IMG/VR virus record: IMGVR_UViG_3300020442_000157
Span: 1 to 25,606 of that record
Strand: one strand, 5' to 3'
Length of the DNA stretch: 25,606 nucleotides
Source of the DNA: a virus
Position 1 is the first letter of the stretch; every line of letters starts with the position of its first letter. The position numbers and the translations under genes are program-made. The notes below the pieces were generated by a model that made no database searches, was not told the DNA's origin, and was given only the letters and a program-made list of their open reading frames with translations. Positions 5,655 to 14,707 of the stretch are shown piece by piece.

Positions 5655-5813
5655 ATGTGGTTGAATCTAGACGTAGACCCTGAAGATTATTTAATACCTT
5701 CAGATGGAGACATCACGGAAGAGTTAGAAGATGGTATACGTGAATACATACACGATATTAATGGAGTAGAAATTAAAACAATGAAAGTAACACAGGAGAT
5801 AAAAGATGAATAA
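5655..5813 (+). CDS. Small acidic hypothetical protein (52 residues)
   Basis: A 52-residue reading frame exactly fills the gap between the DUF3310 gene and ribonucleotide reductase. It begins MWLNLDVDPEDYL one base after the upstream stop and ends with TAA 8 bases inside the reductase gene. It is strongly acidic, with many Asp/Glu residues and a helical ITEELEDGIREYI segment. The ribosome-binding site is weak, so coupling to the upstream gene is likely. The dense operon leaves no other use for this 150-base stretch, which is the main argument that it is real. Function is unknown. Its tail contains the ribosome-binding site of the reductase gene. Confidence 0.65.
   Translation: MWLNLDVDPEDYLIPSDGDITEELEDGIREYIHDINGVEIKTMKVTQEIKDE
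5794..5798 (+). promoter_or_regulatory. Ribosome-binding site of the ribonucleotide reductase gene
   Basis: AGGAG lies 7 bases before the ATG at 5806, inside the end of the small acidic gene. It fixes the reductase start and gives that gene its own translation signal in addition to coupling. Confidence 0.75.
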
Positions 5814-7776
5814 CGATATAAAATTACCAACAGATTATCAAAACTTTATTGCACTATCTAGATATGCTAGATGGCTAGAGCATGAGAGTAGAAGGGAAAC
5901 ATGGGCAGAGACAGTAGAAAGATATGTAAATTATATTGTTACTCATGTTTCTAAAAAACATAATTTAGATTTATCTCTTGAGTTGCAAGAGAAAATATAC
6001 AATAATATAATTAATTTAAATGTAATGCCAAGCATGAGAGCTTTAATGACAGCAGGTAAAGCACTAGACAAATGTAATGTAGCAGGATATAACTGTTCTT
6101 ACTTACCTGTAGATAGCCCTCGTGCATTTGACGAATGTATGTATATTCTTATGTGTGGTACAGGTGTGGGTTTCTCTGTAGAAAGAGAGAACATTGATAA
6201 ACTTCCTGTAGTTAATGAACACTTTGAAGATAGTACAACAGTAATTAAAGTTGCCGATTCAAGATCAGGTTGGGCAAGGGCAGTGAGAGAACTTATCGCT
6301 ATGTTATATGTAGGTCAAGTTCCTAAATTTGATGTTGAAGATGTCAGACCAGCAGGTGCAAGACTTAAAACATTTGGTGGTAGAGCTTCCGGTCCTGAAC
6401 CACTCGTAGACTTTTATCGGTTTTGTGTCGCAGTGTTTAAGGGTGCAGCAGGTAGAAGGTTATATCCTATAGAATGCCACGACATAATGTGTAAGATTGG
6501 TGAGGTAGTAGTCGTAGGTGGGGTTAGACGATCTGCTCTCATCAGTCTTTCAAATTTAGGTGATGACCAAATGAGGTATGCTAAATCAGGTCAATGGTGG
6601 GAGAATGAAGGACAACGAGCATTGGCTAATAACAGTATAGCATACAAAGGTAAGATCAGCATGGAAACATTTATGCGTGAATGGTTGGCACTTGTTGAAA
6701 GTAAATCAGGAGAGCGTGGTATATTCAACAGAGAGTCAGCTAAAAGACAAGCAAGTAAAAATGGTAGACGAGATGTTGATCATCAGTTTGGTTGTAACCC
6801 TTGTAGTGAAATCATACTTAGACCATATCAGTTCTGTAATCTATCTGAAGTTGTGGTAAGAGAAGACGATACAGAAGAAACTCTTCTTGAAAAAGTAGAG
6901 GTTGCTACAATACTTGGTACACTTCAAGCTACTCTGACTGACTTTAAATATCTACGAAAGATATGGAAAGACAATACAGAAGAAGAAAGATTACTTGGAG
7001 TATCATTGACAGGTATCATGGACAGCAAGTTATTAAATAGTTACAATACAATCTACTTGGAAGATGGTCAAATGGTTTTTGATGAAACATTTGTAGGTAA
7101 TATTTTAGAAAGGTTAAAGGAGAAAGCAATTGAAACAAACAAACAATATGCAAAGGCTTTGGGTATACCTCAATCAACTGCCATCACTTGTGTTAAACCA
7201 AGTGGTACTGTTTCTCAACTCGTGGATAGTGCAAGTGGCATACATACTAGATTTAGCGAGTATTACATTCGCACTGTACGTGGTGACAACAAAGACCCAT
7301 TAACAGAGTTTATGAAGTCAGAGGGTATACCAAACGAACCTGATGTAATGAAACCTGATAGCACTACAGTGTTTAGTTTTCCAATGAAAGCACCTAAAGG
7401 AGCAGAGACAGAGCTTAGTTCACTAAACCAATTAAAGACATGGGCTATCTTTCAAAAGTATTGGTGTGAACATAAACCATCTGTAACCATATCAGTCAAA
7501 GAAGAAGATTGGTTAAAGGTAGGTGCATGGGTATATGAAAACTTTGAAGATATATCAGGTATAAGTTTCCTACCACATAGTGATCATACATATGCACAAG
7601 CACCTTACCAAGCTATTGATAAGGAAAAGTATGACGATCTAGTAAAACAGATGCCTAAAGATATTGATTGGAATAGACTTGTTGAGTTTGAGAAAGGTGT
7701 TGACACCACAGCAGGTAGTAAAGAACTTGCATGTACAGCAGGTGTATGTGAAGTCGTAGACATAATAGCAACATAG
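5806..7776 (+). CDS. Adenosylcobalamin-dependent ribonucleoside-triphosphate reductase (class II, monomeric)
   Basis: This 656-residue class II enzyme makes deoxynucleotides from ribonucleoside triphosphates using coenzyme B12. Key residues match Lactobacillus leichmannii RTPR. NPCSE at 331-335 carries the thiyl-radical Cys333 (RTPR Cys408) and Glu335 (Glu410). Cys97 (NCSYLP) and Cys344 are the substrate-reducing pair (Cys119/Cys419), with the 11-residue Cys408-Cys419 spacing kept. The C-terminal CTAGVC (Cys643/Cys648) is the CX4C thioredoxin-reduced shuttle pair (Cys731/Cys736). Other visible motifs are MCGTGVGFSVER at 116-127 and KPSGTVSQL near residue 465. It is shorter than the 739-residue RTPR. 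It makes phage DNA synthesis dependent on cobalamin in the host. Start fixed by AGGAG at 5794-5798. Confidence 0.95.
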   Translation: MNNDIKLPTDYQNFIALSRYARWLEHESRRETWAETVERYVNYIVTHVSKKHNLDLSLELQEKIYNNIINLNVMPSMRALMTAGKALDKCNVAGYNCSYLPVDSPRAFDECMYILMCGTGVGFSVERENIDKLPVVNEHFEDSTTVIKVADSRSGWARAVRELIAMLYVGQVPKFDVEDVRPAGARLKTFGGRASGPEPLVDFYRFCVAVFKGAAGRRLYPIECHDIMCKIGEVVVVGGVRRSALISLSNLGDDQMRYAKSGQWWENEGQRALANNSIAYKGKISMETFMREWLALVESKSGERGIFNRESAKRQASKNGRRDVDHQFGCNPCSEIILRPYQFCNLSEVVVREDDTEETLLEKVEVATILGTLQATLTDFKYLRKIWKDNTEEERLLGVSLTGIMDSKLLNSYNTIYLEDGQMVFDETFVGNILERLKEKAIETNKQYAKALGIPQSTAITCVKPSGTVSQLVDSASGIHTRFSEYYIRTVRGDNKDPLTEFMKSEGIPNEPDVMKPDSTTVFSFPMKAPKGAETELSSLNQLKTWAIFQKYWCEHKPSVTISVKEEDWLKVGAWVYENFEDISGISFLPHSDHTYAQAPYQAIDKEKYDDLVKQMPKDIDWNRLVEFEKGVDTTAGSKELACTAGVCEVVDIIAT

Positions 7777-7789
7777 AAAGGAGAATATT

Positions 7790-7948
7790 ATGACGGAAGA
7801 AACAAAACCAATGACAGCTTTGGAAGTACAAGAGTTGATCATAGGCTCGTCTGAAAAGATGAAGTTGTTAAATATATTTAATAGTTTAATGCAAGAAAAT
7901 ACTGCACTTAAAAAACAGATAGAGGAGATGAAGAATGCTAAAACGTAG
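7790..7948 (+). CDS. Small hypothetical protein with C-terminal helix (52 residues)
   Basis: A 52-residue frame fills the gap after ribonucleotide reductase. A textbook ribosome-binding site, AAAGGAG at 7777-7783, sits 6 bases before its ATG. The C-terminal half (from about residue 24: MKLLNIFNSLMQENTALKKQ) looks like a short leucine-zipper-type coiled coil, which suggests a dimer. The stop lies 14 bases inside the next gene. I recognise no family; the strong translation signal and tight packing are the evidence that it is expressed. Confidence 0.75.
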   Translation: MTEETKPMTALEVQELIIGSSEKMKLLNIFNSLMQENTALKKQIEEMKNAKT

Positions 7949-8177
7949 ACATGGTTTAAAAAAGTATGATGCACCTCTGCGAATACAGTTTGATAAAGGC
8001 AGAAGTGCTTTCTTTAGAGGTACAGATTACAATGGTAAACTTTTAATGCCACCTTATAATTCTAACTCAATGCAGTATAGAGAGTGGTTACGTGGATTTA
8101 ACTCTGCATTTGCACAAAATATTAAGAAGGTTAAGAATTATGAATCTAGAAGAGGAAGCAAAACAGTTCATGCATAA
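7935..8177 (+). CDS. Small basic protein resembling ribosome modulation factor (RMF)
   Basis: This 80-residue basic protein starts at an ATG preceded by GAGGAG at 7922-7927. Residues 28-57 resemble the core of bacterial RMF: an RG pair (28-29), a Gly, MPPY at 38-41, then WLRGF at 51-55 and a following Ala. E. coli RMF has RGYQAG, MCPY, then WLGGW and a following Ala, with an 8-residue gap from Tyr to Trp where this protein has 9. RMF dimerises and silences 70S ribosomes. Short RMF-like proteins are widespread in Proteobacteria and their phages. The match is by eye over about 30 residues, so the family call is tentative. It overlaps both neighbours and is translated as part of the operon end. 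Confidence 0.75.
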   Translation: MLKRRHGLKKYDAPLRIQFDKGRSAFFRGTDYNGKLLMPPYNSNSMQYREWLRGFNSAFAQNIKKVKNYESRRGSKTVHA

Positions 8178-8502
8178 TAGGAACAGATGTTTATTAGTAG
8201 CTTCAGACTATCAACTGAAAGCAAAAGAGACAGCCATCTTTCCTAAAGACAAAGCTCTTGAGTATTTATGTTTGGGTTTAGTGGGTGAAGCAGGTGAGAT
8301 AGCTAATAAAGCTAAGAAGGTTATACGTGACAATAAGAAAGATCACGATCTTGGTGGTGAGATTGGGGATGTGTTATGGTACTGTGCTATGTTAGCTGAC
8401 CATTTAAAGTTAGATTTAGGTGCTATAATGCAATCTAATCTTGACAAGTTAAGTGATAGAAAGAAACGTGGTGTGTTAGGTGGTAGTGGAGATAAAAGAT
8501 AG
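8140..8502 (+). CDS. MazG-like nucleotide pyrophosphohydrolase
   Basis: I chose the ATG at 8140 (product MNLEEEAKQF..., 120 residues): AAGAAGG at 8124-8130 precedes it at normal spacing, and the in-frame ATG at 8092 only adds residues deep inside the previous gene. The MazG metal-binding signature is complete: EAGE at 50-53 and EIGD at 74-77 (ExxE...ExxD), followed by VLWYCAMLADHL. MazG enzymes release pyrophosphate from nucleoside triphosphates. Marine phage versions have been proposed to lower ppGpp, and a cyanophage enzyme was shown to prefer deoxynucleotides. With ribonucleotide reductase just upstream, a nucleotide-pool role is the likelier one. It is the last + strand gene, ending one base before the opposing gene's stop codon. 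Confidence 0.93.
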   Translation: MNLEEEAKQFMHNRNRCLLVASDYQLKAKETAIFPKDKALEYLCLGLVGEAGEIANKAKKVIRDNKKDHDLGGEIGDVLWYCAMLADHLKLDLGAIMQSNLDKLSDRKKRGVLGGSGDKR

Positions 8503-13980: not shown

Positions 13981-14462
13981 TACTTAGTCTCCTCTTTTTT
14001 TCTAGACATCAATCCTTTTTCTTCTTTTACAACCTCTGCTGTTTCTTTTATATTCTCTTCTTCCTGATCTAGTTTAGTTAATATAGCATTTATTGCAGCC
14101 TTGTTTGGTTTTTGTTTTTTAGGAACTTCTGAATCCATTGTGTACTTTATCTTTGCTGTTTCAGCCATGCCCTTCATAAACTCCATAAGTATTGGGTTCA
14201 ATAAAAATGCAAGGTCTACACTGTGAACACCTTCCATAACACCACCAGTAGTTATAGATTCAGCTATTGTACTCAAAGGAACACCCATCTTAATTACACT
14301 TAATAGTTTAGTAGATGATTCTTCTTGAACAATTCTTTCAAAGTAAAACTCCATACCATCTTCTATTGTATTTATTTGAGGTGGGTTAAGCCAAGGTCTA
14401 CTGTTTAATTCTGCTGTCATTCCTTGTCCCGGAATAGGTGCTGTAAATCTTTGTTGTTGCAT
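13980..14462 (-). CDS. Hypothetical virion-associated protein with PIPGQGMTAE...PWLNPP motif
   Basis: This 160-residue protein begins with a proline-rich segment (PIPGQGMTAELNSRPWLNPP, residues 9-28), then TIEDGMEFYFERI. From memory, similar N-terminal segments occur in conserved hypothetical proteins of marine myoviruses and podoviruses, but I cannot check this here. A central hydrophobic helical region (about residues 54-96) is followed by a Lys/Glu-rich tail. AAAAAGGAAG precedes the start. Its neighbours are internal virion candidates, so a structural or assembly role is likely; no specific function can be given. Confidence 0.75.
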   Translation of the reverse strand: MQQQRFTAPIPGQGMTAELNSRPWLNPPQINTIEDGMEFYFERIVQEESSTKLLSVIKMGVPLSTIAESITTGGVMEGVHSVDLAFLLNPILMEFMKGMAETAKIKYTMDSEVPKKQKPNKAAINAILTKLDQEEENIKETAEVVKEEKGLMSRKKEETK

Positions 14463-14707
14463 TATGTTACTTCCTTTTTAAATTTATTCTGTATACTGTC
14501 TGTTATCTTTGCAATCTTTATTATGTCTTCTTGCTCACTTTTAGATTTAAGTTTTTGTTGATTTTTTATTATTCTTCTTTGTGGTCTTTGCATCAAAGTT
14601 CCCTTATAATCATCTGCTGGGTTAAAATCTGTTTGTAGCATTTGTGATCTCAAAGCGTTTACTTTTTTGTATGCCATCTCTGCTGCTTTTGTTTTTGCTA
14701 TTGTCAT
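14462..14707 (-). CDS. Small basic hypothetical protein
   Basis: This 81-residue, Lys/Arg-rich protein is predicted helical at both ends, with a polar middle (NPADDYKGTLMQRPQRR). The start has AAGGAT a few bases upstream, and the stop overlaps the next gene's ATG by one base. No family is recognised. Its place between the hendecad-repeat protein and the internal virion genes suggests a minor virion or assembly protein. Confidence 0.7.
   Translation of the reverse strand: MTIAKTKAAEMAYKKVNALRSQMLQTDFNPADDYKGTLMQRPQRRIIKNQQKLKSKSEQEDIIKIAKITDSIQNKFKKEVT

Follow-up and report, generated by a model that had tools for sequence, protein, structure and literature searches.

The gene analysed here raises the question of whether a phage carries a relative of the ribosome modulation factor (RMF) and what such a protein would do in the infected cell. 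It lies in a virus record of 25,606 nucleotides (IMG/VR IMGVR_UViG_3300020442_000157, positions 1 to 25,606; the whole 25.6-kb stretch is referred to as the window) with an HMO-2011-type gene set, including MazG, DUF3310, a class II ribonucleotide reductase (RNR) and a DNA polymerase that contains a zinc domain of the DnaJ type. The polymerase matches Pfam DNA_pol_A (E 4.7e-51) and DnaJ_CXXCXGXG (E 1.2e-4), a combination described as a mark of HMO-2011-type phages (PMC9038755), and shares 62-63% identity with the polymerases of CRP-1, CRP-345 and HMO-2011. The gene itself (7935..8177, + strand) has an ATG start preceded by a Shine-Dalgarno-like GGAG and encodes a protein of 80 amino acids containing the motifs RG (residues 28-29), MPPY (38-41) and WLRGF (51-55). 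Its most constant upstream neighbour is the class II (B12-dependent) RNR (5806..7776, +; assigned by Pfam), which is followed by a coiled-coil-like 52-aa ORF from the ORF list (7790..7948, +) that overlaps the start of the Rmf-like gene by 14 nt and to which neither Pfam nor PHROGs assigned a family. Downstream lies a MazG nucleotide pyrophosphohydrolase of 120 aa (8140..8502, +; Pfam MazG E 1.4e-8, phrog_229 E 2.3e-31). From the three motifs, the sequence-only reading had proposed a relationship to RMF and a possible phage control of host ribosomes.

The ORF is a real gene under purifying selection, with homologs in other phages and dN/dS values of 0.06-0.29 in all 13 family pairs compared. 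One scan of IMG/VR identified homologs of its protein at 50 loci, and a scan with the family profile yielded at least 580 confirmed relatives, 80 of which were fetched. Five matching loci were found on genome contigs, in three MAG records and with two contigs occurring twice, which probably represent phage contigs binned with MAGs. The resulting family sample comprises 139 loci with 108 distinct gene sequences and 86 proteins, near-duplicates included; family counts are not independent events, since some of the 108 sequences are still near-identical. Named carriers include HMO-2011 (phage1322_20), CRP-1 (gp29) and CRP-345 (gp38), in each of which the gene is annotated as hypothetical. Furthermore, the roseophages CRP-3, CRP-212 and CRP-235 contain a shorter ORF directly after RNR (1971-2156 in L058, 2977-3177 in L052 and 1974-2162 in L059, respectively), which matches the family HMM (E 1e-14, 3e-14 and 2.5e-11) and lacks a gene annotation of its own. 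Six of 11 HMO-2011-type isolates, recognised by their polymerase, carry the Rmf-like gene, and no family homolog was detected in the 25-28 kb searched of CRP-2, CRP-603, CRP-207, CRP-738 and HTVC033P. The Pantoea phage PdC23 encodes a hypothetical protein with two tandem Rmf-like motifs (pdc_038; L055 1758-2147), which matches the family HMM with an E-value of 1.3e-5 and an HMM of bacterial Rmf/CrpP-like proteins with 1.5e-7.

Taken by itself, the window protein resembles RMF no more than expected by chance, and it is the comparison with its relatives that makes the kinship significant. The protein has no RMF match in Pfam, even at E<=10, and no match in PHROGs, and its sole NCBIfam match (NF041887, 'Rmf/CrpP fold protein'; E 0.13, 11.8 bits) lies below the curated cut-off of 40. 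Among 42 family members, which form an alignment with rows hand-picked from the family loci, Pfam RMF matches 17 at E<=1 (best 1.9e-5) and is the most-matched Pfam family, followed by P63C with 8 of 42 (best 9.8e-4); the proposed relationship is thus borne out, though not by the window protein alone. Of the NCBIfam models, Rmf_CrpP_fam matches 10 of these 42 members at E<=1, Rmf_like_phage matches 9 (best E 0.0025), and CrpP_fam (NF033696) matches a single member (E 0.052). Matches of family members in PHROGs are weak and to unnamed families, the best being phrog_1757 (13/42, E 3e-4). A search of PDB sequences with the first profile returned no RMF and chance matches only (mTOR FRB domain, E 0.19), and PADLOC gave no match for the Rmf-like protein. 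A tblastn search of phages with E. coli RMF returned 15 records, every one at E 1 or worse; the Vibrio phage matches at E 1 were located within a large protein and were dropped.

Profile-profile comparisons connect the family to RMF through intermediates. Compared with a set of 20 bacterial Rmf/CrpP-like proteins, the family profile reaches P 1.9e-5 and a score of 29.3, where none of 100 column shuffles exceeds 14.5, and these 20 proteins in turn match canonical RMF with P 2.7e-12. The bacterial set was found with the Pfam RMF model followed by a motif-pattern filter, which gave a fitting frame in 29 of 40 fetched stretches; four of these were canonical, and 20 of the remaining 25 were used. 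When compared directly with canonical RMF, the 42-member profile scores 16.0, which is inside the shuffled range (maximum 19.0) and not significant. Upon addition of the CRP-3, CRP-212 and CRP-235 ORFs, the profile matches canonical RMF with P 5.4e-4 and a score of 24.3 (maximum of 100 shuffles, 17.5). RMF is also the sole Pfam match of each of these three ORFs, with E-values of 0.0064, 0.013 and 0.11 and scores of 17, 15.9 and 13 bits, all below the Pfam gathering cut-off of 27.9 bits, as is the window protein, which has no match. With an HMM built from the 20 Rmf/CrpP-like proteins, 74 of 86 members score higher than any of the 1,920 decoy ORFs (window protein 8.3 bits, best decoy 6.7), and an HMM of canonical RMF ranks 30 of 86 above the best decoy (window protein 7.2 versus 6.2 bits); three ORFs that turned out to be RMF of E. 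coli, the protein of PdC23 and a member of the family are left out of the decoys, and with those included no member scored higher than the best 'decoy'.

The predicted fold points in the same direction. An AlphaFold model based on 42 sequences consists of two helices (residues 15-28 and 46-72) joined by a loop, with a mean pLDDT of 82.9. Foldseek against PDB placed E. coli RMF in the hibernating ribosome at rank 1 with a probability of 0.90, although the E-value of 0.8 is, like the Foldseek E-values for RMF in general, weak. In a VIA-align comparison ranging over 350,542 chains, the four best matches are RMF chains (Z 5.4, 5.3, 5.0 and 4.6; 52-59 residues aligned) followed by an unrelated row at 3.5, where a Z of about 5 may, according to the tool's own note, reflect merely a common arrangement. 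Linker length varies across the family, and a second model, built for a member whose linker contains a long insert, retains both helices with two short strands between them; RMF is absent among its 13 Foldseek matches and ranks first in a second structural comparison, though at a Z of only 4.3. Among viral models (BFVD), small phage proteins of uncharacterised function head the list (E 2.4e-3 and probability 1.00 for the first), and two among the 50 matches listed are named ribosome modulation factor. At the level of the family, both an RMF profile hit and a two-helix fold were therefore found, on whose joint absence the sequence-only reading had staked its refutation. Because the three roseophage ORFs form a bridge to canonical RMF, they indicate, together with the Pfam family matches, the profile score and the fold, that the assignment was right, and membership of the family in the Rmf/CrpP superfamily is supported by sequence comparison and modelling.

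Membership in the superfamily leaves the question of how closely the protein resembles a working RMF. In RMF of E. coli, G16, G23, G43, W40 and W44 are proposed to hold the structure and C29 and P30 to set the loop, and single alanine changes at conserved residues are reported to have prevented the formation of 100S particles or strongly diminished it (Yoshida et al., PMC8126665). The same source reports a contact of R45 with C1536 of the anti-Shine-Dalgarno sequence and describes R45, like G23, as needed for dimerisation and not for binding (PMC8126665). The motif line-up proposed from the window alone holds for PY and W, which are separated by 11 residues from P to W compared to 10 in E. coli RMF (P30, W40), and fails for RG, as profile alignment (hhalign) places RMF R15-G16 on K21-G22 and residues 28-29 on RMF A22-G23. 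The gene can accordingly be divided into a basic N-terminal tail with a family-specific LxKYDAP block, which alignments show to be lacking in RMF (residues 1-14; 7935..7976, +), predicted helix 1 with the invariant G22 on RMF G16 (residues 15-28; 7977..8018, +; AlphaFold, hhalign), a linker with P40-Y41 on RMF P30-Y31 (residues 29-45; 8019..8069, +; alignments, AlphaFold) and predicted helix 2 with W51, R53, G54 and aromatic 55, which continues as a basic C-terminal extension past the length of RMF (residues 46-72; 8070..8150, +; AlphaFold).

Residues were counted over 87 proteins, comprising the 86 distinct family proteins and that of CRP-212. Equivalents of RMF G16, W40 and G43 are present in all 87 and of P30 in 85, the W44 position is aromatic throughout (Y 43, F 41, W 3), and the G23 equivalent is G in 45. 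C29 is retained in none, with S, N, P or T in its place in every protein, and neither is R45 (N 78, D 8, S 1). Read against the E. coli RMF mutant data, these counts suggest that the fold residues are mostly kept and that the dimerisation residue R45 is gone. The N-terminus is basic, with K/R at position 3 in 70/87 and R at position 4 in 69/87; the MKRQKRD start of RMF with R3, K5 and R11 is absent from the family, and in this loosely aligned region R3 and K5 have only loose counterparts. Besides G22, W51 and G54, which correspond to RMF residues, and the aromatic F/Y/W at 55, the family has invariants of its own (L15, F26, E50 and R53 in 87/87), and L8, K10, D12, A13, P14, Q18, M46, Q47 and R49 are each kept in 86/87. 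Judging from helical periodicity, R53 and R49 may form a new basic stripe on helix 2. The full set of eight residues required of RMF (G16, G23, C29, P30, W40, G43, W44 and R45) is not present, and because of these residues and the scores below cut-off, the family is, on sequence grounds, not canonical RMF.

The protein is small and basic as first described, with a net charge of +13 and a pI of 10.7; only 2 of 14 other small window proteins compared have a pI >=10.0. Median net charge and pI are +13/10.5 for the family, +6/10.1 for RMF (17 proteins) and -4.5/4.7 for the 20 Rmf/CrpP-like proteins. Such strong basic charge favours contact with nucleic acid or the ribosome over whatever use the acidic cousins have. 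Nevertheless, since these closest profile relatives are acidic and of uncharacterised function, the superfamily need not be ribosomal. Several large Pseudomonadota genomes (G154, G146, G274 and others) contain multiple small, mostly acidic Rmf/CrpP-like genes, with up to five matches per genome and in many cases a P-to-W spacing of 11. The window also encodes an 81-aa basic protein (14462-14707, -; net +9, pI 10.0) amid structural genes.

Counted over distinct gene sequences whose flank is long enough, RNR is located upstream of the Rmf-like gene at 102 of 103 loci and MazG follows it at 86 of 102, with the Rmf-like gene staying in place where MazG is missing. In the window, the MazG ORF starts at 8140 within the Rmf-like gene, resulting in a 38-nt out-of-frame overlap, which makes translational coupling possible and a joint product not; the earlier description of the two as co-translated was therefore overstated, retaining only the coupling that the overlap permits. 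MazG was rejected as a fixed partner on the basis of the 86/102 loci, which weakens the suggestion that the pair acts on the host growth state via ppGpp. RNR was rejected as a necessary partner, as four isolates (CRP-2, CRP-603, CRP-207 and CRP-738) encode it and the 25-28 kb searched in each yielded no homolog. In 15 of 16 MazG-less distinct loci (L020-L027, L030, L031, L093, L099, L119, L122 and L125), an ORF of ~50 aa begins at the same overlapping place, and most of these ORFs have a MazG-like start (LEEEAK..M) followed by a different, coiled-coil-like sequence. Further downstream, a conserved ORF of ~83 aa (MQKITPTHDLSWYLKW..) was identified. From the sequences, it looks as if the MazG domain has been replaced behind a conserved start at these loci.

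Phages in culture that carry the gene have hosts belonging to SAR116 and to the Rhodobacteraceae (RCA). The presumed host class was represented by that of a MAG titled Rhodobiaceae and taken to be Alphaproteobacteria. Among its 190 genomes, one exceeds the cut-off for RMF and 126 exceed that for the C-terminal domain of long HPF (51 of 61 in the order of this MAG); at the level of the phylum, 53 of 299 genomes exceed the cut-off for RMF. Because the presumed host class rarely scores for RMF and mostly has long HPF, the phage protein is unlikely to serve the formation of 100S particles in the manner of RMF.

We assign a probability of roughly 0.45 to the reading in which the gene product is an Rmf/CrpP-fold protein carried by the phage, which would bind host ribosomes and modulate translation without dimerisation. 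The protein would be made during infection alongside nucleotide-metabolism genes and may bind to the host 30S near the 16S rRNA 3' end, which is the site of RMF, possibly through the basic tail at its N-terminus and the extended, likewise basic helix 2. Since the predicted RMF fold is kept and the ribosome-pairing residue is lost, the mode of ribosome contact is probably other than that of RMF. Binding could dampen or redirect host translation, or shield ribosomes, and 100S dimers would not be expected to form, given that the family has lost the residue needed for dimerisation and that long HPF dimerises the ribosomes of the likely hosts. A more specific version, which we consider rather unlikely, is that of a phage-specific ribosome factor, in which the Rmf fold without the dimerising residue and with a new N-terminal block and basic helix extension would occupy the anti-Shine-Dalgarno platform in hosts apparently without RMF, so that the phage would bias initiation or lock the 30S while long-HPF dimerisation by the host is prevented or bypassed.

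Another possibility, which deserves serious though tentative consideration, is that the Rmf/CrpP fold is real and its role non-ribosomal; the protein might, for example, serve the nucleotide/replication module as a nucleic-acid-binding accessory, or inhibit a defence or a regulator of the host. The replacement of the ribosome-contact residue R45 and of C29 with retention of the fold residues is consistent with such a role, as is the near-constant RNR upstream (102/103). The latter link, however, looks positional, given that no homolog could be detected in the searched region of the four RNR-carrying CRP phages mentioned above. Furthermore, the superfamily has acidic members unlikely to bind rRNA like RMF and includes CrpP, whose proposed enzymatic role, the phosphorylation of ciprofloxacin, is reported as disputed (PMC10971285), whereas its strong basic charge puts the phage family back on the RMF side. 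The absence of a PADLOC match also counts against a non-ribosomal role.

It is unlikely that the protein is a functional RMF that would act with host HPF to convert 70S ribosomes into 100S dimers, leaving the host idle. The family relation and fold, the conserved equivalents of G16, P30, W40, G43 and aromatic 44, and reports of HPF-carrying phages (PMC6375957) would fit this explanation, but 86/87 proteins have N or D in place of R45, which dimerisation requires, C29 is replaced throughout, single alanine changes in E. coli RMF reportedly suffice to abolish or greatly reduce 100S formation (PMC8126665), and the presumed host class combines RMF in 1/190 with long HPF in 126/190. The idea that host ribosomes are idled as by RMF itself is therefore not supported. 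That the protein is a short basic helical hairpin sharing a few residues with RMF by coincidence is hardly credible and already largely refuted, as the negative single-sequence Pfam and PDB sequence searches for RMF and the direct score within the shuffled range are outweighed by RMF being the top Pfam family of the 42-member set, by intermediates that connect both ends above all shuffles, by the 74/86 members that exceed the 1,920 decoys and by RMF taking the four best structural places.

The family can be compared with several known systems. With RMF (PF04957; E. coli b0953; PDB 2JRM, 4V8G, 6H4N, 9IOT) the family shares two helices and a PY loop, a Gly pair, a W..G-aromatic core, small size and basic charge, but it lacks the MKRQKRD start, C29 and R45, has one extra residue between P and W, and adds an LxKYDAPLxIQF block, a basic C-terminal helix extension and a linker of variable length. 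The core motif is shared with the NCBIfam families NF041886 (Rmf_CrpP_fam), NF041887 (Rmf_like_phage) and NF033696 (CrpP_fam), as is the P-to-W spacing of 11 with many bacterial members, although the window protein scores far below the curated cut-off and the bacterial relatives are acidic (median -4.5 compared to +13). Two BFVD models named 'Ribosome modulation factor', from Delftia phage IME-DE1 (A0A0F7ING3) and an uncultured phage (A0A6J5N1U1), are likewise phage-borne and have a similar predicted fold (Foldseek probability 0.91 and 0.99), but their identity to the window protein is 20-21%. Two further proteins, bS21, which is a ribosomal protein, and HPF, which binds elsewhere than RMF, are unrelated to the RMF fold. 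Both are reported to be carried by phages (bS21 by pelagiphage HTVC008M, HPF by phage rV5) as small proteins that act on the host ribosome or are intended for it, and phage bS21 is described as entering ribosomes (PMC6375957). No study of a phage RMF-like protein was found in the open-licence literature, and the string 'Ribosom' is absent from the main text of PMC9038755.

Since NCBIfam and BFVD already catalogue phage proteins of this fold, the family is a new, abundant and diverged subfamily rather than a new kind of protein. It supplies intermediates linking small phage proteins with RMF and is encoded on at least 580 IMG/VR contig stretches. Phages of the HMO-2011 type are reported to be widespread in the ocean and dominant there (PMC9038755). 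If ribosome binding holds true, the Rmf-like protein would give these phages a direct handle on translation in slow-growing marine alphaproteobacteria.
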